DNA from: Magnetospirillum sulfuroxidans
GTDB lineage: Bacteria; Pseudomonadota; Alphaproteobacteria; Rhodospirillales; Magnetospirillaceae
Assembly: GCF_018224925.1 (NCBI RefSeq)
Contig: NZ_JAGTUF010000021.1
Coordinates: 1 to 59,165 of the forward strand
Direction of reading: 5' to 3'
DNA: 59,165 bases
Shown here one piece after another: positions 18,485 to 41,813 of the stretch. The notes under the pieces were generated by a model, which saw only the letters and a list, made by a program, of their open reading frames with translations, had not been told where the DNA came from and made no database searches. The position numbers and the translations under genes are program-made. How positions within the stretch are numbered: position 1 is the stretch's first letter; each line of letters starts with the position of its first letter.

Positions 18485-18910
18485 CTATTTCATGGGAATG
18501 ACGTTGTTGCTGCCCTCTGCCCCCATATAGACGGCCAGGATTTCCACCGGCTCGGTCCCTGGATTGGTGCCGCGATGGGTGGTCATCATCGCCTCGACGA
18601 AGGAATCGCCGGGCTTATAGGTCTTCATGCCCTTGTCGCCGTAATCGACGACGGCGGTGCCCTTCAAGATATAGGCGAACATGGGCACGCCATGACGGTG
18701 GAACACGGTTTCGGCGCCGGGCGCGATGGTGACGATATCGGCCTTGACCTCGGCCGGGCCGGTGGTCGGATAGACGATGGTCTCGCCGATGATGGTCTTG
18801 GTGGTCTTGAGCAGCGGCTTGGTCGGATAGGCGTCGGCGGCCAGCGCCGGCATGGCCAGCGCGCCCCCCAGCAAAAGCGTCAACGTCGCGGTCTTGAACG
18901 GCTTCAACAT
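18485..18910 (-). CDS. Exported cupin-domain protein
   Basis: A 141-residue protein with a signal peptide (LKPFKTATLTLLLGGALAMP, cleaved after ALA) and a single cupin barrel. The first cupin motif is GAETVFHRHGVPMFAYILKG and the second carries GDSFVEAMMTTHRGTN. Histidines that could bind a metal are present in both. Periplasmic single-domain cupins of this type are usually of unknown function. It follows the P-type ATPase gene by 49 bp on the same strand, so it could be the last gene of the iron operon, but the junction is not tight. Confidence 0.75.
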   Translation of the reverse strand: MLKPFKTATLTLLLGGALAMPALAADAYPTKPLLKTTKTIIGETIVYPTTGPAEVKADIVTIAPGAETVFHRHGVPMFAYILKGTAVVDYGDKGMKTYKPGDSFVEAMMTTHRGTNPGTEPVEILAVYMGAEGSNNVIPMK

Positions 18911-18959: not shown

Positions 18960-21059
18960 TCACCCGCGGGGGGAGGGGGCATTGGGCATGAGCCGGCGCA
19001 ACGCGTTCAACAAGATGCCGATGGTGGTGCCGTTATGCAGGACCGCCGTGGTGATCGGCGACAGCAGGCCCAGGGCGGCCATGCCCAAGATGCCGGTATT
19101 GAGGCCGACGGTCAGGCGGTAATTGCTGGCGATGCGGGCCATGGCGGCATTGGCCAGATCCTTGGCGTCGGCCACGCGCTCGATGCTGTCTTCCAACAAC
19201 GCGATATCGGCGGTCAGTCGGGCGATGTCGGCGCCCTTTTGCATGGCGATGCCGACATGGGCGCCGGCCAAGGCGGGGGCGTCGTTGATGCCGTCGCCGA
19301 CAAAGGCGATGCGGGCGCCGGATTGGTTCAGCTCGGCGATGATGCGGGCCTTGTCCTCGGGCATCAGTTCGGCGTGGAAATCGTCCAACCCCAGTTCGGC
19401 CGCCAGATCGGCGGCGCGATCGCGGTGGTCGCCGGTCAACAGCAAGATGCGCTTGACCCCGGCGTGGCGCAGTCGGGCAATGGTCCGGGCGCTGGTGGCG
19501 CGGATGGAATCCTTCAAGGCCAGGATGCCGAGCAATCTGCCGCCATAGCCGATGAACAGCAAGGTCTTGCCTTCATGGTACAGACGGTCGATCACCGGCT
19601 GCTGCGGACTGATGTCGATGCCTTCATCCTCTTGGACGAAATGGCGCGAGCCGACGACGACACGCTGACCGTCGATGACGCTGGCGACGCCATGGGCGAC
19701 GATGAACTGAACTTCCTGATGATCGAAATGGTGGTTGTGGGTGGCCTTGGCGGCATTGACCACGGCCAGGGCCAGCGGATGGAAGTAATGTTCTTCGACC
19801 GAGGCGGCCAGACAGATCAGATCCTCGGCCGTATAGGCGGCGTCGAAAGCGATGGAATCGGTGACTTCCAGCATGCCGGTGGTCAGCGTGCCGGTCTTGT
19901 CGAAAATAAAGGTATCGGCTTGGGCCAGACGTTCCAGAGCGGTGGCGCCCTTGACCAAGATGCCGGCCTTGCCGGCGTCGAACATGGCCGATTTGAAGGC
20001 CACCGGGGTGGCCAGCTTCAAGGCGCAGGAATAATCAGCCTGCAAGACCGAGGCGGCGTTGCGCCAGTTGCCGGTCACCAGGGCAGAGGCGCCGGCCAGT
20101 TTCAGGACGCTGGGCACCAATTGGTCGGCCAGTTTGGCCGCTTCGATCTGGGCCTCGCTTTTCGCCGTCAGCGATTGTTCGACATAATCGGCGATGCGGG
20201 CGGCGGCGGTGCGGCTGCCGACCTGTTCGGCGTAGACGCTCAGCCTTCCTTCTTCCATCAGCGTCCCCGACAGCACGCTGGCGCCGCGCCCCTTGACGAC
20301 GCCGACGCTTTCACCGGTCATCGCCGCTTCGTTGACGGTGGCTTCGCCGGCAAGGACGGTGCCGTCGACCGGAATGACGGTGCCGGCGCCGACGACGACG
20401 GTATCGCCGACCATGACGTCGGCGGCGGGGATTTGCACTTCGACGCCGTCCTTCAACACCCAAACCAGATCGCTGGTTGGACGCAGCAGATGCTTAAGTA
20501 AATCGTCGGAGCGCCGGGCGATGGAATTCTCCATGTATTCGCCCAAGGCCAGCATGAAGGTGGTGGTGTTGGCGGCGGTGAAATCGGAACGAGCCAGCGA
20601 GATGGACACCGCCATGGCTTCCAGCACATGGCTGGTGATGCCGTTCTCGGCGTAATCGGTGGCGGCATGACGCAGCAGGGGCAGGGCGGCGTTCAGGCTG
20701 ACCGGCAGGCGCAGGGGCAGGGGCAGCAGGCCGGTCCCCAGCAACACGGTCAGCGCGGCGGCGACCGCCGCCTTGCCGTCATCGCCCTTGCCGGGTTTGG
20801 CGGTTGCCGCCGCCAGTTCCAGGCCGGCCAGGGTTCGGGCAATGGCCTCGGCATCGGTCGCGGCCGGATCGAACACCACCACCAGCGAGCCGGCGCGCTC
20901 GTTGGCGCGGGCGGAAGTGACGCCGTCCAGCCCGGCGGCGACGGCTTCAAGCGCCGCCGAATCCGCCGCCGCCGCCGGGTGGCGGCGATAGCGCAGACGA
21001 ACCCGACCGGGCAGGCGGTGGGCGATTTCGACAGAGCGCAGCCAGGGCTCGGCGTTCAT
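18960..21059 (-). CDS. fezB: P1B-type ATPase, ferrosome FezB-like
   Basis: A 699-residue heavy-metal P-type ATPase. At the N-terminus, instead of a CxxC metal domain, is HRLPGRVRLRYRRH (residues 14-27). The actuator loop is TGES (248-251), the phosphorylation site DKTGT (387-391), and the hinge GDGINDAP (588-595). The membrane metal motif is SCALKLATP (344-352), not CPC or SPC. I recall that this arrangement marks the P1B-6 group, which includes FezB, the pump that loads iron into ferrosomes. Its start overlaps the small gene upstream, at the end of feoABC and five small genes. Transport of iron into a vesicle is inferred from subgroup and context. Confidence 0.78.
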   Translation of the reverse strand: MNAEPWLRSVEIAHRLPGRVRLRYRRHPAAAADSAALEAVAAGLDGVTSARANERAGSLVVVFDPAATDAEAIARTLAGLELAAATAKPGKGDDGKAAVAAALTVLLGTGLLPLPLRLPVSLNAALPLLRHAATDYAENGITSHVLEAMAVSISLARSDFTAANTTTFMLALGEYMENSIARRSDDLLKHLLRPTSDLVWVLKDGVEVQIPAADVMVGDTVVVGAGTVIPVDGTVLAGEATVNEAAMTGESVGVVKGRGASVLSGTLMEEGRLSVYAEQVGSRTAAARIADYVEQSLTAKSEAQIEAAKLADQLVPSVLKLAGASALVTGNWRNAASVLQADYSCALKLATPVAFKSAMFDAGKAGILVKGATALERLAQADTFIFDKTGTLTTGMLEVTDSIAFDAAYTAEDLICLAASVEEHYFHPLALAVVNAAKATHNHHFDHQEVQFIVAHGVASVIDGQRVVVGSRHFVQEDEGIDISPQQPVIDRLYHEGKTLLFIGYGGRLLGILALKDSIRATSARTIARLRHAGVKRILLLTGDHRDRAADLAAELGLDDFHAELMPEDKARIIAELNQSGARIAFVGDGINDAPALAGAHVGIAMQKGADIARLTADIALLEDSIERVADAKDLANAAMARIASNYRLTVGLNTGILGMAALGLLSPITTAVLHNGTTIGILLNALRRLMPNAPSPRG

Positions 21060-21388
21060 ATCTGGCCGTTCTGCTCGGCCTGAACCTCCGCCTGCAAATC
21101 GGCCATCTGTTCCTGCATTTCGGCCATGCCGCCCATCAGGCCGCCATAGGCCTTGATGCCGGCCTTGAACAGCTTGCCGCGCAATTCGGCGTCCGACAAA
21201 ACGTAAGCGGCCGCGCCGCCAAGCAGCAGGCCAAGCAGGAATTGTTCCGATCGCCCGGCCGGCAAAAGACGACCCAGGCCGCCCAGCATGCCTTGATTCC
21301 GGCCTTGCCCCAGATGCAGGGCCATCATCTGTTCAAGGTCGCGGCGCTTAAGGCCCTTTGCCTTTTTCTGTTTGTTCTTCTTAGCCAA
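21056..21388 (-). CDS. Small membrane-associated protein of the feo/fez operon
   Basis: A 110-residue protein with three parts: a Lys-rich start (MAKKNKQKKAKGLKRRDLEQ), a glycine-rich hydrophobic segment (EQFLLGLLLGGAAAYVLSD, residues about 48-66), and a C-terminal amphipathic Glu/Gln-rich helix (MAEMQEQMADLQAEVQAEQ). No known catalytic motif. Overlap with both neighbours implies coupled translation. A role in forming or decorating a membrane compartment, as for ferrosome accessory proteins, is inferred from operon position only. Confidence 0.7.
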   Translation of the reverse strand: MAKKNKQKKAKGLKRRDLEQMMALHLGQGRNQGMLGGLGRLLPAGRSEQFLLGLLLGGAAAYVLSDAELRGKLFKAGIKAYGGLMGGMAEMQEQMADLQAEVQAEQNGQI

Positions 21389-21707
21389 TTTCAGTCTCCG
21401 GGGCTGGCGGGATGGGATCGGGATTGAGCAGGATTTCCGCCGCGGCGATTCCGGCGGCGCCGCCGGCCAGGGCGATCAGGGCGCTGGCGTAATCACGCCG
21501 CCGCAAGCTCTCGGCGGTGGCGATGCCGGCGGCCAGGGCGGCCCCGCCTTGCAAGGCCATTCGCAGGACCTTTTTTCCGGGCGGCTTGCCGTGGCTCCAA
21601 CGGTCCTGAACGGCGGTCAGCAAGGCGGTCGCGACCAGGCCACGGGTGAAATTGCCGGCCAGTTCGACGGGCGCCAAGGCGACGCCCTTGCCTTTTTTCA
21701 GCTTCAC
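21381..21707 (-). CDS. Small Gly/Ala-rich membrane protein of the feo/fez operon
   Basis: A 108-residue protein with a basic N-terminus (MKLKKGKGVALAPVELAGNF) and two hydrophobic Ala/Gly-rich segments (MALQGGAALAAGIATAES and YASALIALAGGAAGIAAAEI). GG and GxxxG-like patterns favour helix packing in a membrane. The acidic, proline-rich tail is short (NPDPIPPAPETEIG). It overlaps the preceding gene by four bases and the following by eight. It resembles no enzyme that I recognise. Confidence 0.7.
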   Translation of the reverse strand: MKLKKGKGVALAPVELAGNFTRGLVATALLTAVQDRWSHGKPPGKKVLRMALQGGAALAAGIATAESLRRRDYASALIALAGGAAGIAAAEILLNPDPIPPAPETEIG

Positions 21708-22072
21708 GAATCGGACTCGGGCTTGGCATCGACGGCCGCCATGGCCGTCGGGGCCGCGGCCTTTTTCTTGGTCGCGGGCTGGCGGCGCGGCGTGGCCTTG
21801 GCCTTGGCCACGGTGGCGGGCTGTTCCGCCATGGGTTCCGCCGCGGCCTGTTCTTCCGGGGCCAGTTTGGCGCGCAGGGTGGCGGTGGATTTCTCGATGG
21901 CTGACAAGCTGGTGACGGTGGCGTCGCGCAGACCGGCCTGGGCTTTGTCCAGACCCGTGCGGGCCTTGTCGCCCAAATTGCCCAAACTGTCGGGAGCCTT
22001 GACTCTTTTCAGCAATTTGACGCCGACGATACCGGCCACCAGACCAGAGGCAAAGGTAAGCAGAGGCAGCAT
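21704..22072 (-). CDS. Membrane-anchored protein with Lys/Ala/Pro-rich tail (feo/fez operon)
   Basis: A 122-residue protein. An N-terminal hydrophobic segment (LLTFASGLVAGIVGVKLLKR) is followed by a helical stretch (GDKARTGLDKAQAGLRDAT, SAIEKSTATLRAKLAPEEQ) and a low-complexity tail rich in Lys, Ala and Pro (KAKATPRRQPATKKKAAA). The layout of one anchor plus a charged disordered tail resembles proteins that coat bacterial organelles or bind polyanions. That is analogy, not evidence of function. Confidence 0.68.
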   Translation of the reverse strand: MLPLLTFASGLVAGIVGVKLLKRVKAPDSLGNLGDKARTGLDKAQAGLRDATVTSLSAIEKSTATLRAKLAPEEQAAAEPMAEQPATVAKAKATPRRQPATKKKAAAPTAMAAVDAKPESDS

Positions 22073-22090
22073 GATGCTCTCCTTTCGAGA

Positions 22091-22420
22091 TCAGGCCTTG
22101 GCGGCACTCACCAAGGTTTGCAGCAATATTTCGGTGCCCGGCACCGATGTTCCAGACAAAAATCCAGCCCAGGCCGCTGACGGGATGATGGCGGGGTCGT
22201 ATTCGATGGTGCAGGACTTGGCCAGCGGGTTAAGAGCGATGGTGCGGATGCCGGCCGTGGCGGCCAGGGCGGCGCTGAATCTTTTGGCGTCCTCGGCCAG
22301 GTTTTTCAGGTCGCCGCTGATCGGGCCGTCGAGCTTTAGGCGGACCCGGCCGGGAATGTGATGGGCGATGACCAGGGCACGGGCAAAGCGCAGCAGGGGG
22401 AAATCGGTATCCACGGACAC
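22091..22420 (-). CDS. HMA-like domain protein (ferrosome FezC-like candidate)
   Basis: A 109-residue protein. Near the N-terminus it carries IAHHIPGRVRLKLDG, almost identical to the start of the P-type ATPase in this operon (IAHRLPGRVRL), followed by a ferredoxin-like fold pattern (AALAATAGIRTIALNPLAKS, then CTIEYDP). It looks like a free-standing copy of the ATPase's N-terminal HMA-like domain without the CxxC metal site. A role as a soluble partner of the pump is inferred. Confidence 0.7.
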   Translation of the reverse strand: MSVDTDFPLLRFARALVIAHHIPGRVRLKLDGPISGDLKNLAEDAKRFSAALAATAGIRTIALNPLAKSCTIEYDPAIIPSAAWAGFLSGTSVPGTEILLQTLVSAAKA

Positions 22421-22433
22421 GATGGTTCAGGCC

Positions 22434-22883
22434 TTATTTAAGTGTGCGGCGCCAATGCACCGCCATGTGAGTCAGCATCATCGCCACGAACACCGCCCCG
22501 GCCTGGGCATGCAGTTTCTTGCTGGTGCCTAAGGCCAGCAAAGATACCGCCATGCTGGCCATGGCGCCGATTTTGGCGACGCGGTTGATTTCCCATTTGG
22601 CTTTGCGCGGCGCGGTCAGGGCGATGCGCTGGGCCACGTGCGGAACCGGCCGGGCAATGGCGGGCAGCACGGCCGCGACTTCGGCGCGGATGCGGGCTTG
22701 CATGGTCCCGTCATCGGGATCGAAGCGCAACAGCATCGACCCCAAGGCGGGATTGCCCTCGACTTGGGCCAGCGCTTGCAGCCGTGCCGTCAGCGCGTCG
22801 TGGCGGCTTTTGTCGCGCAGCAGCGGGTGGCGCAGGCGGATGCGGCCGGGCAAGACCGAGGCGAAGACATTCACGCTGTCCAT
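22434..22883 (-). CDS. HMA-like protein with C-terminal membrane segments (feo/fez operon)
   Basis: A 149-residue protein. The N-terminal domain has SVLPGRIRLRHPLLRD (residues about 9-24), the same PGR(V/I)RL motif as two other products of this operon, and MLLRFDPDDGTMQ as its last strand. Two hydrophobic segments follow (GAMASMAVSLLALGTS and AGAVFVAMMLTHMAVHW) and the end is basic. Its start overlaps feoC by 13 bases, tying it to the iron operon. Confidence 0.7.
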   Translation of the reverse strand: MDSVNVFASVLPGRIRLRHPLLRDKSRHDALTARLQALAQVEGNPALGSMLLRFDPDDGTMQARIRAEVAAVLPAIARPVPHVAQRIALTAPRKAKWEINRVAKIGAMASMAVSLLALGTSKKLHAQAGAVFVAMMLTHMAVHWRRTLK

Positions 22884-23098
22884 TCAAAGACTTCCGATGG
22901 CGGTTCCTTGCAGGCGCAGCCCGATCCGGCCTTGCCGCAGCCGCCTTGGATATCAAGCTTGCGCAGCCGTCCCTTGGCGATCCATTGCTCGACCATGGGG
23001 CGGACGGCGCTGGCGGCGGTATCGAAATGAATGCTGATTTCGGTCAGCGAGGCCCGCTTGCGCTCAACCATGAAGCTTTTTAGCTCGGACAGAGTCAT
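22871..23098 (-). CDS. feoC: FeoC-like regulator of the Fe(II) transporter
   Basis: A 75-residue winged-helix protein. The helix-turn-helix part is LTEISIHFDTAASAVRPMVEQ, followed by the wing and a cysteine cluster, GGCGKAGSGCACKE, which in FeoC proteins can hold an oxygen-sensitive iron-sulfur cluster. FeoC stabilises or regulates FeoB. It lies 12 bp after feoB and overlaps the next gene. Confidence 0.82.
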   Translation of the reverse strand: MTLSELKSFMVERKRASLTEISIHFDTAASAVRPMVEQWIAKGRLRKLDIQGGCGKAGSGCACKEPPSEVFEWTA

Positions 23099-23110
23099 GG
23101 CTTTGTTCCT

Positions 23111-25468
23111 TTATTCCGCCGGCACCGCCGCAAGGCGGCGGGCCTGGGCGCGGCCGACGATCCACATGGTCGCCACCGCCAGCACCAGCACGGTGGCGCA
23201 GATGGACAGCCACAGGGTCGAGGTGGTCGGATCCAGGGCGAAACGGGCTGTCTGATAAACGGTGACCGAGGCCATGTAGCCCAAGATGGTGGTCCAGCCG
23301 GTGGCAAACGCCGTCCAGCCCAGGCTGGTTTCGTGGCGAATGGCGCCCAGTGCCGCGACGCAAGGGGTGTAGAGCAGGATCAGCACCATATAGGCCAAGG
23401 CGCCGGCGACACCGTCGAAGCGGGTGACCATGGCGCCAAAGACGCCGCCTTCCACTTTCAGTTCCTCGGCCGCGGTTCCGGCATCGGTCACGTAGCTGAC
23501 ATCCAGTCCCAGCGGGTCGGCCAATTTGTCGACCACACCGGCCAGATTGACGGGAATGGTGGCGGCGGCGGCCAGCAGCTTGGCGCCCAAGGTCTCCGGC
23601 GCCGCTTCTTCCTCGGCGGCCTCGGCGGTTTCGCCTGCGGCCGGGGAGGTGTCGGCGGCATCTTCCGCCGCGGCTTGGCTGTACAGCGTGTTCAAGGTGC
23701 CGACCACCGCTTCCTTGGCGAAGATGCCGGTGAACAGGCCGACGGCCGCCGGCCAGTTTTCCTCGCTCAGGCCCATGGGCTTGAAGAGGGGGATAATGCT
23801 TTGGCTGGCCGCCGACAGCACCGAATCACGGCTGTTTTCCTTGCCGAAGCTGCCATCGGTGCCAAGCGCGTTAAAGAACGACAGCAACATGACGATGGGG
23901 ACGATGACTTGGCCGGCACGGAAGATGAATTCGCGCAAACGCTGCCAAGCCTGCATCACCACGATGCGCAGGGTCGGCAGGTGATAGGGCGGCAATTCCA
24001 TGACGAAATGCGACACGTCGCCCTGCAACAGGGTGTTCTTGAGGATCAGACCGGTCAGGACGGCAAAGGCCAGGCCGACCAGATACAGACCGAACACCAC
24101 GTTTTGGCCGTTGACCGGGAAAAAGGCGGCGGCGAACAGGGCGAACACCGGCAGGCGCGCTCCGCACGACATGAACGGCGCCATCAGCGACGTCAAAATG
24201 CGGTCGCGGCGATTTTCCAAGGTGCGGGTGGCCATGATGGCGGGGACGTTGCAGCCGAAACCGACGATCAGCGGCACGAAGGATTTGCCGGGCAGGCCGA
24301 TGGCGCGCATGGCCCGATCCATGACGAAGGCGGCCCGCGCCATATAACCGGAATCTTCCAGGAACGACAGGAACAGGAACAGGCAGGCGATGATCGGGAT
24401 GAAGGTGGAGACGGTCTGGATGCCCGAGCCGAAGCCCTTGGCCACCACCACCAAGCCTTCCGGCAGACCCAGCCCGGTCAGCGCTTCGCCCAATCCATCG
24501 ACCATGATGGCCCCCATGGCCTGGTCGAAGAAGTCGATAAAGGCGCCGCCGATATTGATGGTGAACAAGAACATCAGATACATGGCCAGCAGGAATACCG
24601 GAATACCGAGAAAGCGGTTCAGAACCACCTTGTCGATGCGCCGGGTCAGCTTCAGCGACACCTTGCGGGGCTGGTGGAAACAGGCGGCCATGGCCTCGGC
24701 GACGAAACGATAGCGGCCGTCGGCGATAATGATGTCGGGTTCGTCGCCACATTGGTCTTCGACCAGGGCGCGATGTTCGGCCAATTGGCTTTCCAGCTTG
24801 CCGGCGGCCAGGGTTTCCACGAAGGCGTCGCCTTCCAGCAGGCGCAGGGCGGCCCAGCGGGAATCGACGTGGCGTGAACCGGCGGCCGTGGCCAAGGTCG
24901 GGGCAAGGGCGTCGATGGCGGCGGTGACGGCGGCGGCGTGGTCGGGATGAGCCGAGGGAACGCGGGCGGCGACGGCGGCGGCGGCGATGGCCTGCTTCAG
25001 TCCGTCGATGCCGGTCGAGCGGCTGGCCACCAGGGGCACCACCGGGCAATCCAACACCTTGGCCAAGGCGTCGCAATCAATCTCGATGCCGCTTTTCTTG
25101 GCCAGATCCATCATGTTGAGGGCGACGACCATCGGCACCCGCATTTCCAGCAACTGGCAGGTCAGGTACAGGTTCCGTTCCAGGTTGAAGGCGTCGATGA
25201 TGTTGACCACCACCTGTGGCTCGCCCGACAAAATATAGTCGCGCGCCACCCGTTCATCCTGGGAACCGGCGCTATAGCCGCCGATCATGTAAATGCCGGG
25301 CAGATCGACCAGATCATAGGTTTCGCCGCCATGGCGGAATTGGCCGACTTTCTTTTCGACGGTGACGCCGGGCCAGTTGCCGACCTTTTGCGTCGATCCG
25401 GTCAGGCTATTGAACAAAGTGGTCTTGCCGCAATTGGGGTTGCCCACCACCGCGATAACATGAGCCAT
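23111..25468 (-). CDS. feoB: Ferrous iron transporter FeoB
   Basis: A 785-residue Fe(II) uptake protein. The N-terminal G domain has GNPNCGKTTLFN (G1), DLPGIY (G3) and NMMDLAKKSG (G4). The membrane core contains the two gate repeats with conserved cysteines, for example IVGFGCNVPAIMATRTLENR and APFMSCGARLPVFALFAAAF. Near residues 610-640 lies an acidic, Ala-rich insert (AAEDAADTSPAAGETAEAAE) that looks disordered and is not typical. The ATG at 25468 was preferred to a TTG two codons earlier because GAGAGGG sits seven bases upstream. FeoA lies two bases before it. Confidence 0.93.
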   Translation of the reverse strand: MAHVIAVVGNPNCGKTTLFNSLTGSTQKVGNWPGVTVEKKVGQFRHGGETYDLVDLPGIYMIGGYSAGSQDERVARDYILSGEPQVVVNIIDAFNLERNLYLTCQLLEMRVPMVVALNMMDLAKKSGIEIDCDALAKVLDCPVVPLVASRSTGIDGLKQAIAAAAVAARVPSAHPDHAAAVTAAIDALAPTLATAAGSRHVDSRWAALRLLEGDAFVETLAAGKLESQLAEHRALVEDQCGDEPDIIIADGRYRFVAEAMAACFHQPRKVSLKLTRRIDKVVLNRFLGIPVFLLAMYLMFLFTINIGGAFIDFFDQAMGAIMVDGLGEALTGLGLPEGLVVVAKGFGSGIQTVSTFIPIIACLFLFLSFLEDSGYMARAAFVMDRAMRAIGLPGKSFVPLIVGFGCNVPAIMATRTLENRRDRILTSLMAPFMSCGARLPVFALFAAAFFPVNGQNVVFGLYLVGLAFAVLTGLILKNTLLQGDVSHFVMELPPYHLPTLRIVVMQAWQRLREFIFRAGQVIVPIVMLLSFFNALGTDGSFGKENSRDSVLSAASQSIIPLFKPMGLSEENWPAAVGLFTGIFAKEAVVGTLNTLYSQAAAEDAADTSPAAGETAEAAEEEAAPETLGAKLLAAAATIPVNLAGVVDKLADPLGLDVSYVTDAGTAAEELKVEGGVFGAMVTRFDGVAGALAYMVLILLYTPCVAALGAIRHETSLGWTAFATGWTTILGYMASVTVYQTARFALDPTTSTLWLSICATVLVLAVATMWIVGRAQARRLAAVPAE

Positions 25469-25470
25469 GG

Positions 25471-25707
25471 TCAAACCCTCTCGATTTCCAAAATGTCGGC
25501 TTCGGTTTTGCGCAGCGTCAGGGTGAAGTTGCGCACCGAGATTTCGATGGGGTCGCCAAAGGGGGCGACGCGGGTGATGGAAAACACCACCCCAGGGGTC
25601 ACGCCCATGGCCAGCAAGCGCTGACGATAGCCACGATCACCCTTGGCGAAACGGACGACGCGGGCGGTGTCGCCCGGCTTCAGATCCTGTACGCGGTTGT
25701 TGGACAT
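25471..25707 (-). CDS. feoA: FeoA, SH3-like partner of FeoB
   Basis: A 78-residue FeoA protein with the typical VQDLKPGDTARVVRF start, GDRGYRQRLLAMGVTPG in the middle and GDPIEISVRNFTLTLRKTEAD at the end. FeoA binds FeoB on the cytoplasmic face and is needed for iron uptake. The ATG at 25707 fits the family length; the frame stays open to 25806 but that region holds the promoter. First gene of the iron operon. Confidence 0.9.
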   Translation of the reverse strand: MSNNRVQDLKPGDTARVVRFAKGDRGYRQRLLAMGVTPGVVFSITRVAPFGDPIEISVRNFTLTLRKTEADILEIERV

Positions 25708-25759
25708 TCGGCGCGCCCTGTTCCTTGAGAATGAAGGTGATAACCAATCGCGATTTCGG

Positions 25760-25788
25760 ATACTAATCCACAAGAAAGATGCGGTCAA
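25760..25788 (-). promoter_or_regulatory. Sigma-70 promoter of the feo/fez operon
   Basis: On the minus strand, TTGACC (25783-25788) is followed after exactly 17 bases by TAGTAT (25760-25765). Transcription would start near 25753, leaving a leader of about 45 bases before feoA. Confidence 0.7.
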
Positions 25789-25792
25789 ATCA

Positions 25793-25806
25793 TTGACGTT
25801 GGTCAA
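25793..25806. promoter_or_regulatory. FNR/FixK-type box before feoA
   Basis: TTGAC-GTTG-GTCAA is a perfect inverted repeat of the FNR/CRP-family type. Its centre lies about 46 bp upstream of the predicted start site, next to the -35 element, close to the class II activator position. Low-oxygen induction of Fe(II) uptake is the likely meaning. Confidence 0.65.
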
Positions 25807-25838: not shown

Positions 25839-26996
25839 TCAGTTCAGCGGCACAGAGGATTGGTGGTGGAAATAGCGCAATTCGTCGATGGTCGGCGGCC
25901 GTTTGGTTTCACCGGCATGGCGGCGCACCAGTTCCAGAATTTCCCGGCCCTGGAGCGAGGTGACCTCGACGCCGATCTCGGCAAAGGCGTGCAAGATGGC
26001 GGTCAGGCCGGAATGCTTGCCCAGCACGACTTGGTGATTGCGGCCCAATTCGCGCGGGTCCAGCGCTTCATAGGTGCGGCGGTCCCGCAACAGACCGCTG
26101 ACGTGGATGCCCGATTCGTGAGTGAAAATGGCATCGCCGACAATGCTTTTATTGACGGGCACCGGGCGGCCCGAGGCTTCGGCCACCAGATGCGATACCG
26201 CCGCCAGATCGGTTTTCACCACCCCGGTGGACAGGGCGTACAGATGCTCGGCCGCCACCACCACTTCTTCCAACGGGGCGTTGCCGGCGCGTTCGCCCAG
26301 GCCGTTGACGGTGGTGCTGACGTGACGGGCGCCACCTTTGATCGCGGCCAGGGAATTGGCGGTGGCCAAGCCCAGGTCGTCATGGGCGTGGATTTCCAGT
26401 TCCAGATCGCAGGCGGCGCGCAGGCGGACGAAGATATCGTGGGTGGCGAAGGGGTCCATGATCCCCAGCGTGTCGGCGAAGCGGAAGCGTTGGGCGCCGG
26501 CTTTCTGACAGGCTTCGACCACCCGCAGCAGGAAGTCGGGATCGGCGCGGGACGAATCCTCGCCGCCGATCAACACCTCGAAGCCCATGTGGTGGGCCTT
26601 GGCCACCATCCCCCCGATATGGGCCAAAGCCCACGCGCGGTCCTTGCCCAGCTTGGCCGACAGTTGCAGATCCGAGACCGGAATGGACAGATTGACGGTG
26701 CCGATCCGACATTGGCGGGCGGCGGCCAGATCGTCGTCATGCATGCGGCACCAGCCGATCAGGCGGGATTTCAGCCCCAAGGCGGCAACGGCGTTGATGC
26801 TGGCGATTTCCTCGGCCCCCATGGCCGGGATGCCAACCTCGATCTCCGGCACTCCGGCCAGATCCAGGGCTTGGGCGATGGCCAGTTTTTCATCCAGACG
26901 AAAGGCCACCCCGGCAGTCTGTTCGCCATCGCGCAAGGTGGTGTCGTTAATGGTCAGGGCGGGAATGGTCAGGGCGGGGGGGACGGGCGCCGCCAT
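25839..26996 (-). CDS. nifV: Homocitrate synthase NifV
   Basis: A 385-residue enzyme that condenses acetyl-CoA with 2-oxoglutarate to give homocitrate, the organic ligand of FeMo-cofactor. The DRE-TIM metal and catalytic motif [17 protein letters not shown] is near residue 20; the HxH metal site is in [18 protein letters not shown]; and the [13 protein letters not shown] segment is typical. The ATG at 26996 begins five bases after iscA ends. Co-transcribed with iscA from the sigma-54 promoter at 27356-27371. Confidence 0.93.
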
Positions 26997-37234: not shown

Positions 37235-38599
37235 CTAATCAGCCGAGGCCCCGGTTGGTGAGGACACGCCTTTGAGGTAATTGGCCAGGGCCTTGACCTG
37301 TTGCTGCCAATGGTCTTCGTCGCGGTGTTCTTGTTGGCGGATATCCGGGCGGGCTTGGGCTTGTTCGATATAGCGCAGCAGATAGGGCATGCGGGCGCGG
37401 CGGGATTCCTCGGTCTGGCCGAGATTATAGGCGAAGCGTTCCAGATAGCGGGTGCCCAGGCGGGGAAAGACCCGGTGCAGCATCAAGACAAAGAAATCGT
37501 GCCAGGGATCGGGGAAGGCGGTGAAGCCTTTGAGCAGCATGTCGCGCAACGCCCCTTCGCGGGCTTGTTGCTGAAACACGCGGGGGTCCCATTCCTGTTC
37601 GTACAAGGTATGGCAGGCGCGCCAGAATTCGGACAATTGCGGCCACCAATCCAGGGAAGCGGAAAGCAAGGATCGCATCAGCACGATCTCGTCATTGCCC
37701 ATATGGGGCAGATCATAGGCGGCGGGCGAGGGCGGTTGCAGGATGTCGCGCAATTCCTTGGTTTCCGGCTTGATCTTGAGCACGCGCTCGCCGTCGCGCA
37801 ATTCGCTGACCAGCAACAGGTCATTCCAGGCGCTGTTCCAGGTCAGTTCCAGCAGACGCTTCATGCTGTCGTTGATGTGTTCCCAGAAGCTTTCGGTGGT
37901 GGCGGTGCCGATATCGATGTTGCTGGCCAACAGGCGCAATTGCCGGCTGCTCTTGATCTTGGGATAGATCAGCGCGGCGACGGCCTGCTTGTAACGCTCG
38001 GCAAAGGACGGCGACAGCAGGAACGGCAGCGGCAACGGCCGCGACACCGCCGGATTGTGCTTTTGGAAAAACGCCAACACCCGCTCGACCCGGTATTGCA
38101 ACGCCGCCAGACACAGATCGTCAAAGCTGGCGAAGCCGCCGCGCGGGTTGGGCGGCGCCGGTTCCGGGTATTCGATATGCTTGAGCAGATGGGCAAGCTG
38201 CGGCGGCAGGCTGTATTGCAGGTCTTGCGGGCCGTCGTCTTCCTGGGCGGCAGGGGGCGGCACGTCGTCTTCCAACAGCCGGTTGGCGGCCTGTGCCCGC
38301 CGGACCGGGTCGTGTTCCAAATGCGGCACGCGCTTTTCCCGCGCCGCGTCCAAGATGGCGACGCAATCGGCGGCGGCCAGCCGGGTGTGGTGGCGCAATT
38401 CCTTTTCCGGCGCGTCGAACGGCAGGTCGCCGACCACCTCGCCCAGCAGGATCGACAATTGGTCAAGCAGCTCGCGTTCGTCGGTGCGGCGCAAAATCTG
38501 GGTCAGGGCCACATAGGATTGCTCCATCAGCTCGACCGGATCGTCCAGGGCGGCGATGGTGTGGCGCAGACGTTCGGCATCGACGGGCAAATCGGACAT
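37235..38599 (-). CDS. Conserved-looking hypothetical protein beside nifK
   Basis: A 454-residue soluble protein not assigned to a family. It is acidic at the N-terminus (DPVELMEQSYVALTQILRR, then DERELLDQLSILLGEVVGD), has a Pro-rich linker near residues 113-160, and is helical and Trp-rich in the C-terminal half (SLDWWPQLSEFWRACHTLYE, DPWHDFFVLMLHRVFPRLGT). No membrane segment. GC content and codon use match the nif genes rather than the island, so it is probably native and marks the right edge of the insertion. It is separated from nifK by a terminator. Confidence 0.6.
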   Translation of the reverse strand: MSDLPVDAERLRHTIAALDDPVELMEQSYVALTQILRRTDERELLDQLSILLGEVVGDLPFDAPEKELRHHTRLAAADCVAILDAAREKRVPHLEHDPVRRAQAANRLLEDDVPPPAAQEDDGPQDLQYSLPPQLAHLLKHIEYPEPAPPNPRGGFASFDDLCLAALQYRVERVLAFFQKHNPAVSRPLPLPFLLSPSFAERYKQAVAALIYPKIKSSRQLRLLASNIDIGTATTESFWEHINDSMKRLLELTWNSAWNDLLLVSELRDGERVLKIKPETKELRDILQPPSPAAYDLPHMGNDEIVLMRSLLSASLDWWPQLSEFWRACHTLYEQEWDPRVFQQQAREGALRDMLLKGFTAFPDPWHDFFVLMLHRVFPRLGTRYLERFAYNLGQTEESRRARMPYLLRYIEQAQARPDIRQQEHRDEDHWQQQVKALANYLKGVSSPTGASAD

Positions 38600-38671
38600 G
38601 GCTATGACTTTCGGGCAATCACCTTCCGTCAGTATATGGCCGTGTCGATCTTTATCGCCAAGCGGGAAATG

Positions 38672-38705
38672 AAAAAACCCCGGAGCACTGGGGTGCTCCG
38701 GGGCT
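38672..38705 (-). terminator. Rho-independent terminator of nifHDK
   Basis: On the minus strand CCCCGGAGCACC-CCAG-TGCTCCGGGG is followed by TTTTTTC, a classical intrinsic terminator, 27 bp after the nifK stop codon. Confidence 0.9.
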
Positions 38706-38731
38706 TGTACGATCCAAACCGGGACAGCAGG

Positions 38732-40258
38732 TTACCGGGTCAGATCGAAGGAGATGTCCGATTCGTCGGCGACTTCGAACACACGGTCAAGGATTTCGAC
38801 CAGAACCCGCAACGCGCCCTGATAGCCGAAGGTGGGGAAGCGATGGTGATGGTGGCGGTCGAAGATCGGGAAGGTCATGCGGATCAACGGAATGCCGGTG
38901 TCCTTTTCCAGATACTTGCCGTAGGACGAGCCGATGATGAAATCGGTCGGTTCGGTGAACAGCAGCGAGCGCAGATGCCACAGATCCTTGCCGGCCCACA
39001 CCTGACCCGAGGCGCCGAAGGGCGAGGAGGCCAGCAGGGCCTTGGCCTTGGCTTCCCAGTCCTTGCCGCCATTGGTGGCCAGGACGTGGGTCGGCTCGGC
39101 GCCCATTTCCATCAGGAAAGCGGCCATGGACAAGCAGAAATCGGGGTCGCCGAAGACGGCGAACTTCTTGCCATGCAGCCAAGCCTGGCTGTCGGTGATG
39201 GCGTCGACCAGACGGCCGCGTTCCTTTTCGATGGAAGCGGGAATGGCCTTGCCGGTCAGTTCCGAAACCTTCATCAGGAAAGCGTCGGTGGCGCCGATGC
39301 CCATGGGATAGTTGAAGGCGGCGGTCTGCTGCCCCTTGGTCGCCACATATTCCAGGGTCTTGAGCGAGCAATATTCCTGCAAGCCGATGGTGGCCTTGGC
39401 GTTGATGGCGGCGCGGGTGTCGTCGAGCGTGGTGCCGCCGTCATACATGCGGTATTCGCCGTCCGAGGGCGTGTCGTAGACATCGGAAACGTCGCCGATG
39501 AAGGTGTAATCGACGCCCATGGTGTCGAGGTAACGCTTGATCTCGCGGTTGTTGGCGACCGCATAGCCGTCGAAACCGGGGATGATGTTGATCTTCTCGC
39601 CGGCGGTGCCGGTCAACTGGGATTCACGATCCCAGAAGTACGAGAGGATGCCCTTCATCTGGTTGTCGTAGCCGGTGGTGTGGCTGCCGACGAAGGACGG
39701 GGTGTGGGCGAAGGGAACCGGGAAATCAGCCGGAACCGATTCCTTTTCCTTGGCGGTGGCGATGAACGCCGACAGATCGTCGCCGATGACTTCGGCCATG
39801 CAGGTGGTCGAAACCACGATCATCTTCGGCTTGTACAACGTGTAGGCGTTCTGCAAGCCTTCGACGATGTTGGCGAGACCGCCGAACACGGCGGCGTCTT
39901 CGGTCATCGAATCGGCGACGATCGGCACCGCTTCCTTGAAGTGGCGAGCCAGATGCGAGCGGAAATAAGCGACGCAGCCTTGCGAACCATGCACGTAGGG
40001 CAGGGTGCCTTCAAAACCGGCGGCCACGAACACCGCGCCCAGCGGCTGACAAGCCTTGGCCGGATTGATGGTGGCGATTTCACGGGCGAAGTTCTTTTCG
40101 CGGTATTCCCAGGTCTTGGTGTATTCGACCTGGGCGGCCACGACATCGTCGGTGGGCCGGCACTCGAACTGAGCCTTCTTGGTGGCGAACAGTTCCAGGT
40201 ATTCCGGTTCCTTGAACAAGGAAATGTGGTCTTTGATCTTGTCAGCGCTCTGCGGCAT
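38732..40258 (-). CDS. nifK: Nitrogenase MoFe protein beta chain NifK
   Basis: A 508-residue NifK. P-cluster cysteine segments are visible as [34 protein letters not shown] and [15 protein letters not shown]. The [20 protein letters not shown] block and C-terminal [19 protein letters not shown] are typical. With NifD it forms the alpha2beta2 dinitrogenase. AAGGAG precedes the ATG. It lies 100 bp after nifD, a gap that holds a GC-rich inverted repeat, and ends at a strong terminator. Confidence 0.97.
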
Positions 40259-40358
40259 GGCAGTTCTCCTTCATCCTCCCCGCGCCCCCGTTTTGTGGGC
40301 GTCACGCGAGGAGGTGTTGTGACATCAAGAAATGTAAGGCTTTACAAACGGTTGGCGC

Positions 40359-41813
40359 TTACGCGGCCTTCCACGGAGCCTTGAACTTCGACCAGATCGG
40401 GCTGTTGATGGCCAGGTCCATATCGCGAGCGAAAATGGCGAAGCCGTCATAACCGTGATACGGGCCGGAATAGTCCCACGAGTGCATCTGGCGGAAGGGC
40501 ACGCCCATCTTTTGGGTGGCGTACTTTTCCTTGATGCCGGAACCGACCAGATCGGGGCGGATCTTTTCGATGAACTGCTCAAGCTCGAAGCCCGAGACAT
40601 CGTCATAGATCAGCGTGCCTTCCTTGACGTAATCGGTGGTGCGCTGATAGTCGTCGTTGTGGCCGAATTCATAGCCGGTGCCGACGATGGTCATGCCCAG
40701 ATCGTCATAGGCGTTGGCGACGTGACGGGGACGCAGACCGCCCACGTACAGCATGACCTTCTTGCCTTCCAGGCGGGGCTTGAACTTGGCCAGCACATCG
40801 GCGACCAGACCTTCGTACTTGGCGATGACCTTTTCGGCATTGGCCTGGATGGTCTCGTCGAACTGCGAGGCGATCTTGCGCAAGCTCTTGGCGATCTGGC
40901 TGGGGCCGAAGAAGTTATATTCCACCCACGGAATGTTGTACTTCTCTTCCATGTGACGGCAGATGTAGTTCATCGACCGATAGCAGTGGATCAGGTTCAG
41001 CTTGGCCTTGGGGGCGCGTTCCATTTCGGCCAAGGTGGCGTCGCCGGACCACATGCCGACCACGCGCAGACCCATTTCTTCCAGCAGCTTGCGGGACGGC
41101 CAGGCGTCGCCACCGATGTTGTAATCGGCGATCAGATTGACGTCATAGGGGCCGGTTTCCCATTCGGGCTTGGACTTTTCGAACACCCAATCGCGGATGG
41201 CGTCGTTGGCGATGTGGTGACCCAGCGACTGGGACACACCGCGGAAGCCTTCGCAACGGACCGGAACGATGGTCTTGCCGGTTTCCTTGTGCTTCTTCTT
41301 GGCGACGGCTTCGATGTCGTCACCGATCAGGCCGATCGGGCATTCGGACTGGATCGAGATGCCCTTGTTCAGCGGGAACAAGACGTTCAACTCGTCGATC
41401 ATCTTTTCCAGGTTCTTGTCGCCACCGAAAACGATGTCGCGTTCCTGGAAGTCCGAGGTGACCTGCATGGTCACGAAGCTGTCGATGCCGACCGTGCCAT
41501 TGAAATAGTTGCGGCGCTGGGACCAGGAATAGTGACCGCAGCCGACCGGACCATGGGAGATGTGGACCATGTCCTTGACCGGACCCCACACCACACCCTT
41601 GGAACCGGCATAGGCGCAACCACGAATGGTCATGACACCGGGAACGGACTTGATGTTGGACTTGACGCCACAGCTGGACGAACCAGCGTCGTCAGTCTTC
41701 TTGACGTTAAGGTGACGGCCACGCTTCTTGGCGGCCTTCTCGGGGTACTGCTCGAGGACTTCCTTGATAAGGGCCTCATTGAAAGCAGCGTCGGGTGCGT
41801 TGTCGAGGCTCAT
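40359..41813 (-). CDS. nifD: Nitrogenase MoFe protein alpha chain NifD
   Basis: A 484-residue NifD. P-cluster cysteines lie in [36 protein letters not shown] and [14 protein letters not shown]; the FeMo-cofactor Cys ligand is in [18 protein letters not shown] and the His ligand in [18 protein letters not shown]. This is a molybdenum-type alpha chain: the neighbours are nifEN, nifV and nifQ, and no vnfG/anfG gene follows. The ATG at 41813 has AAGGAG; upstream in-frame codons are not family-like. Confidence 0.97.

Follow-up and report, generated by a model that had tools for sequence, protein, structure and literature searches.

Nine minus-strand open reading frames (ORFs) in a 59,165-nucleotide stretch of the Magnetospirillum sulfuroxidans genome (contig NZ_JAGTUF010000021.1, hereafter the window) are best read as a six-gene fez (ferrosome) cluster transcribed together with the iron import genes feoABC, and we put the probability of this reading at about 0.8. 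The genes run feoA-feoB-feoC-o149-o109-o122-o108-o110-fezB, from about 25707 to 18960, and adjacent ORFs overlap or are separated by no more than 18 bp. The window is a single entire contig of a 4.13 Mb genome. The window offers a good new example of an already known kind of system, and the shared control site in it is informative; the value lies in the comparison of split and fused arrangements, in the fusion of an HMA-like with a FezC-like part in one protein, and in a near-universal RxR motif. With it the Magnetospirillum group, whose familiar iron organelle is the magnetosome, gains a clear six-gene ferrosome set. The accessible portions of the ferrosome literature searched, outside which most subscription journals lie, describe neither a feo-fez operon nor fez genes in Magnetospirillum (PMC12016538, PMC12748827, PMC9160268, PMC9512821, PMC12713370).

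The assignment to fez rests mainly on FezB and on the gene set. The fezB gene (18960..21059) encodes a 699-residue P-type ATPase with an N-terminal HMA-like domain carrying RxR, the sequence DYSCALK in transmembrane segment 4 (TM4) and HN near the C-terminus; the strings SCALKLATP (residues 344-352) and PGRVRL (residues 17-22), picked out in a first-pass annotation of this DNA, are both present. We take SCA in TM4 to be a feature of the P1B-6 type FezB, and the replacement of CxxC by RxR at the N-terminus to be a Fez feature. On these motifs the window ATPase is FezB-like and of P1B-6 type, and its HN pair agrees with the mark of P1B6 pumps, HN in TM6, given in PMC9374683.

We scanned genomes with a four-row alignment and kept the best 80 of 586 confirmed stretches, equal to 79 loci, a sample biased to close kin. 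From 128 collected P-type ATPases, duplicates included, 16 rows were removed (duplicates, fragments and one unrelated ATPase), leaving a 112-row tree built by a quick method with Shimodaira-Hasegawa-like approximate likelihood ratio (SH-aLRT) support and no bootstrap. A branch with SH-aLRT 100 parted 88 FezB-type rows, the window included, from the other 24. This clade takes in rows from Shewanella, Desulfovibrio and Lachnospiraceae, and the window FezB stands beside those from Magnetospirillum, Azospirillum and Betaproteobacteria. Grouping with CtpC-like pumps, named beforehand as the result that would speak against a ferrosome, does not occur: the window ATPase reads SCA and not CPC, no window protein matches DUF1490 at E 0.1, and the two DUF1490-linked (CtpC-type) ATPases in the tree, from Pseudonocardia and Rhodococcus plasmids, carry CPC with HN and lie outside the FezB-type clade.

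Among the collected ATPases, FezB-type rows read DYSCALK or nearly so in TM4, with HN near the C-terminus in nearly all, and CopA/ZntA-like rows read CPC (the group labelled CPC in the tree also took in locus L011, which reads SCS). D342, Y343, C345 and K348 were invariant in 88/88 FezB rows. SCA was found in 86/88 (exceptions L043 and L127), RxR (R19, R21) in 87/88 with the remaining row gapped, and N676 in 87/88; H675 reads 88/88, of which 87 are meaningful because the tail of the L115 row is frameshifted. A CxxC inside the first 90 residues occurred in a single FezB row of the 88, and the window FezB has no cysteine at all in that segment. Two individual genes may be recorded here. The fezB of genome G007 (L115 5707-7821), a single-contig genome positive for the magnetochrome domain PF18509, is split across two frames near its 3' end, and the pump may lose its C-terminal part, although a sequencing error is possible; fezB and magnetochrome occur together in only 1/13 genus genomes, the one with the split fezB, a pattern that is suggestive and not significant. 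On the Cereibacter azotoformans plasmid pORIO2, typed as conjugative, the fez-type cluster L127 reads ACP and not SCA in TM4, lies near a FeoA-family gene and is a divergent, possibly mobile ferrosome set.

The small genes were described in the first-pass annotation as HMA-like or Gly/Ala-rich, which is right overall and uneven in detail. Pfam HMA_2 scores for o149 (27.2 bits) and o109 (28.8 bits) both fall under the cut-off of 30. HMA_2-like o109 (22091..22420) has a PGRVRLK motif, o122 (21704..22072) a hydrophobic N-terminus and an Ala/Lys-rich tail, o108 (21381..21707) encodes a Gly/Ala-rich membrane protein, and o110 (21056..21388) has a single Gly/Ala-rich hydrophobic segment followed by a charged tail. 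Pfam and NCBIfam gave nothing below E 0.017 for o122, o108 and o110, PHROGs gave nothing at E 0.1, and the Pfam scan showed no DUF6110 match among the small proteins of the window.

We built one profile per small gene (21-24 rows, the window gene plus sequences from 23 close loci) and searched each once, avoiding drift, against 65 distant loci (E<=1e-3). Matches were obtained in 41 loci for o149, 41 for o109, 34 for o110, 18 for o108 and 3 for o122, the counts for o149 and o109 including each other and FezB, as an HMA-like domain is common to all three; reversed-sequence controls gave 0 matches for every profile. In 30 of the 34 loci matched by o110 the gene ends <=50 bp from the fezB ORF start, the 18 o108 matches lie upstream of fezB, and o109, o108 and o110 all match upstream of fezB in Campylobacterota and Gammaproteobacteria. 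Thus, of the five small genes beside fezB, four (o149, o109, o108 and o110) have counterparts in distant fez clusters and o122 is weakly matched; together with the clade placement of FezB, these matches support the first-pass proposal of a ferrosome set fused to feoABC. The o110 profile gets to DUF6110-type genes only when iterated. DUF6110 lies directly upstream of fezB, over cut-off, in Lachnospiraceae L103 and Erysipelotrichaceae L106, and below it in L084 and L085; the o122 N-terminus is similar by eye to such proteins upstream of fezB elsewhere, a visual likeness only.

The first fez gene, o149 (22434..22883, 149 residues), looks FezC-like: it joins an HMA-like domain to two helices with two invariant histidines. 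When 23 rows selected because they contain both parts were aligned, S9, R14, R16, H125, G129 and H139 were invariant in 23/23; the short rows L085, L092, L108, L100 and L082 (cut by a contig end) and one mis-picked L116 ORF were left out. The structure predicted from these 23 rows shows a ferredoxin-like domain and, after it, two long helices spanning 94-117 and 122-142 (mean predicted local distance difference test score 83.7, predicted template modelling score 0.56), and structure comparison was compatible with an HMA-like domain, not decisive. The o149 profile matched the gene immediately 3' of fezB in Desulfovibrionaceae L084 (E 2.5e-23) and L079 (E 3.6e-23), a position we take, from the gene order fezABC, to be that of FezC. 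According to PMC11334425, Desulfurispirillum indicum has a FezC that binds heme b and was modelled as a DUF4405-like dimer, and by analogy o149 probably binds heme b as a dimer of this type. The HMA-like RxR and the two FezC-like histidines give concrete residues for testing.

Grant et al. reportedly described a six-gene operon in Shewanella putrefaciens in 2022, and in PMC12016538 the six-gene fez cluster of R. palustris is RPA2333-2338. The window shares with six-gene clusters a fezB carrying RxR and SCA. With iterated, drift-prone profiles, the order of a divergent HMA-like gene, o109, a long protein, o108, o110 and fezB was recovered in Shewanella, Photobacterium, Vibrio, Ferrimonas, Pragia and Kluyvera; in Shewanella fidelis (L072) and Shewanella sp. 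TC10 (L073), where the o108 and long-protein matches came through these profiles, the long protein has 270 and 306 residues, respectively. The window set differs from these clusters in being collinear, in having feoABC at its head and in having the HMA-FezC-like fusion as its first fez gene, and the divergent Shewanella HMA-like protein lacks, by eye, the two-histidine helices of o149. Next to the fez genes of Shewanella L072 (6143-6622) and Ferrimonas L061 (6384-6773) is a gene for a basic protein with a Cys-rich tail; the Shewanella protein has no Pfam match over cut-off.

Clusters of the Desulfovibrio type, for which we use the gene names fezABC, share FezB with the window, and the gene downstream of fezB resembles o149 in both parts in L084, L079, L080 and L083. 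They have a DUF6110-like protein upstream of fezB. The FezC-like gene there follows fezB, whereas o149 leads the six-gene cassette in the window, and in L085, L092 and L108 the HMA-like part stands alone downstream of fezB. The FeoA, FeoB and FeoC of the window are those of known feoABC systems, which differ in that the window operon continues into the fez cassette.

The feo genes each exceed the Pfam cut-off and occupy 25471..25707 (feoA), 23111..25474 (feoB) and 22871..23098 (feoC; PF09012, E 4.4e-22). Apart from the window FeoB (E 6.9e-68) the genome has no strong FeoB_N match, in a search limited to this kind of iron importer; the next match (E 3.5e-14) is a 520-aa frame taken as another GTPase. 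The first-pass annotation had the nine genes overlapping or at most 20 bp apart, and this holds. Overlaps of 4 bp join feoA to feoB, o122 to o108 and o110 to fezB, those of feoC with o149 and of o108 with o110 are 13 and 8 bp, and the remaining junctions are gaps of 12 bp (feoB-feoC), 13 bp (o149-o109) and 18 bp (o109-o122). The start it gave feoA, 25806, is that of the longest ORF. The ATG at 25707 (78 residues) is probably the true start, because orthologous ORFs have 77-80 residues in L112, L113, L116, L118, L131 and L132 and the extra 33 codons would overlap a conserved promoter block. All nine genes are under purifying selection, with ratios of non-synonymous to synonymous substitution (dN/dS) of 0.10-0.49 in pairwise comparisons with G005 and G011; these values, and the recurrence of the gene order in other genera, show that the small ORFs are genuine genes and not chance frames.

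The nifV gene ends at 25839 on the same strand, 131 bp before the feoA ATG. The gap holds a candidate sigma-70-like promoter, TTGACC-N17-TAGTAT (25760..25788, minus strand), with 9/12 matches, the TTTGACC part of which is conserved in relatives; shuffles gave 1.5 such matches for the 1 seen in the scanned region, so the match is not significant alone. Beside it is an FNR/FixK-like palindrome, TTGACCAACGTCAA (25793..25806, minus strand), the sole TTGAY-N4-RTCAA in the window (0.24 expected), whose binder we presume from the consensus to be an FNR/FixK protein. As a single match also arises at least once in 21/100 shuffles, the weight of this site comes from its conservation. A block upstream of feoA comprising a TTGAY-N4-RTCAA-type palindrome, TTTGACC and GGTTATCACC is conserved in six genomes of the clade (window, Magnetospirillum sp. 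W65 with locus L112, G008, G011, G005 and G007), with the palindrome one base off in G008 and a full FNR consensus in G007. The scan for this palindrome covered 39 upstream regions: one belongs to the window feoA and 38 to relatives, among them the feo regions of G005 and G007. Starts in the relatives were set by hand and may differ from the true start of the unit. The palindrome was present in 8/39, against 0.08 expected from mononucleotide shuffles; six of the eight regions come from this one clade and two are independent (Pseudothauera L040 and Ectothiorhodospira L046).

Comparison of relatives separates the two halves of the operon. The order nifV-feoABC-o149-o109-o122-o108-o110-fezB-cupin-HAD is kept in the window, L112, L116 and L118. 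G005 and G007 have nifV-feoABC-cupin-HAD at that place, with the fez cassette absent, and carry the six fez genes together at another site, one flank of which is common to both genomes. There the separated fez operon is itself preceded by a related block, TTGATGAGCGTCAA in G005 and one with a decayed palindrome in G007. These two fez blocks may derive from a fused operon, because CTTT-TTGTGGAATA, which both contain, recurs in the feo blocks of fused operons and not in those of their own genomes. Related promoter blocks on feoABC and fez, joined or apart, amount to a natural experiment in which coupled import and storage becomes directly testable.

Together these arrangements bear on whether the operon is simply a part of the nif regulon, transcribed by read-through from nifENX-nifV and loading nitrogenase iron. 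The shared strand, the short distance to nifV and the order kept in four genomes fit that explanation, and the nif regulon is indeed adjacent, as the first-pass annotation had it: NifV, an FdxB-type ferredoxin III, NifN, NifE, NifD, NifH, NifB and NifA exceed their NCBIfam cut-offs in the window, where a NifQ-like ORF gave no NCBIfam match at E 1e-20. The link to nif that it suggested is, however, local, being confined to those four genomes of a single clade, and a conserved promoter block of the operon's own lies in the gap. Genome G004 has feoABC-fez with no nif match in the stretches read, the fez genes of G005 and G007 lie apart from nif, and in and around the window gap there is nothing better than a sigma-54 match with 4 mismatches and a NifA-type site with 2 of 6. 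We therefore regard nif read-through as unlikely, and shared anaerobic control of feo and fez is favoured over it because the promoter block is found ahead of feoABC in six genomes, ahead of the separated fez operon in G005 and, decayed, in G007.

More widely, feo-fez proximity is common, and nif-fez proximity is local to one clade. With the window excluded, feoB lies <=8 kb from fez in 21/87 loci, on the same strand in 16, and in 13 of the 47 fully flanked loci; nif genes are near fez in 3/87. FezB occurs at 76-86% identity in 7/12 other genus genomes and in 1/12 genomes from other genera of the family (G013, 71%). Among 289 genomes sampled from the class, that of the window included, three had a FezB match at E<=1e-95, a threshold that may miss divergent FezB, and one of the three, G187, falls outside the FezB-type clade.

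If the feo-fez reading is right, FeoB would import Fe2+ to the cytosol and FezB would pump it, iron being the presumed substrate, across the membrane of an inner compartment by a path that, judged from conservation, may include Cys345 and His675/Asn676. The small membrane proteins could shape or organise this compartment, and o149, as a FezC-type bis-histidine protein and probable heme-binding dimer, might cycle the redox state of iron for storage and release. An activator, putatively of FNR/FixK type, would switch on import and storage together as oxygen falls. As a bolder reading, to which we give a low probability, we propose further that import and organelle storage form one oxygen-switched unit, with a copy of the control block kept with each half where the operon is split, and that the RxR HMA-like domains of o149, o109 and FezB are anion-handling modules for phosphate or iron-phosphate and not for bare metal. 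If true, such domains would account for the presence of iron and phosphorus together in ferrosomes.

Several observations weigh against a co-transcribed ferrosome set or parts of it. Our comparison was made with congeners or kin of the characterised D. magneticus, R. palustris CGA009 and S. putrefaciens CN32. At least one cysteine occurs in the first 90 residues of 64/88 FezB rows, so its absence there is not general. Beyond the close loci o122 has little reach, and Shewanella was reached by o108 through iterated profiles and not in a single step. The DUF4405 score of o149 is 18.6 bits against a cut-off of 26.7, and its strongest distant matches (Gammaproteobacteria L063 and L075) lie some hundreds of bases downstream of fezB, on the other strand. 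Equating o149 with the FezC of every Desulfovibrio is unsafe, because the short ORFs downstream of fezB in L085, L092, L108 and L100 have the HMA-like part only. The palindrome was not found in 31/39 upstream regions, those of Shewanella and Azospirillum included, and the window has no clear Fur box (best candidate 7 mismatches); Fur control of ferrosome genes has been reported for C. difficile (PMC12574912). Three ferritin-family matches lie elsewhere in the genome, one with an internal stop, so storage need not depend on ferrosomes. Gene content, homology, family placement, selection and the conserved promoter block can be read from the sequences directly, whereas iron as substrate, heme binding, the organelle and the identity of the regulator are inferred and go further than the sequence itself.

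The same genes could in principle form an iron efflux platform without an organelle, with FezB located in the cytoplasmic membrane, where it would expel surplus Fe2+, and the small proteins serving as scaffold partners, as PacL does for CtpC. PMC9374683 reports that PacL1 and CtpC form membrane efflux foci and that DUF6110 proteins typically accompany P1B6 pumps, which recalls the DUF6110 genes upstream of fezB described above, and a pump beside an importer could serve as a relief valve. The CtpC-PacL (DUF1490) platforms there likewise combine a P1B6-like pump carrying HN with a small helical partner, but they have CPC in TM4, a DUF1490 partner and a place outside the FezB-type clade, and the window has neither a DUF1490 match nor CPC. 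Its genes match the multi-gene fez kind and not a pump with a single partner, and inducing import and export jointly would seem wasteful unless export fills a store. We consider an efflux platform quite unlikely. A CtpC/ZntA-like exporter of Zn, Cd or Mn located behind feoABC by happenstance is very improbable, for although the ATPase exceeds the cut-off of the cadmium-family model TIGR01512 (354.1 vs 313.5 bits), that is a subfamily model, the broader TIGR01525 scores higher (470.1), and in the tree the ATPase stands apart from the CopA/ZntA-like and the DUF1490-linked pumps, with SCA replacing CPC.

Two features lie next to or beyond the operon. A cupin gene (18485-18910) with a signal-peptide-like start follows fezB and precedes a HAD-type gene, and cupin then HAD-type gene occur in 6/6 clade genomes compared, with or without the fez cassette before the cupin. 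At 37301-40384 a long plus-strand ORF was called where nifK would be expected on the minus strand, and we take it as a codon-bias shadow.

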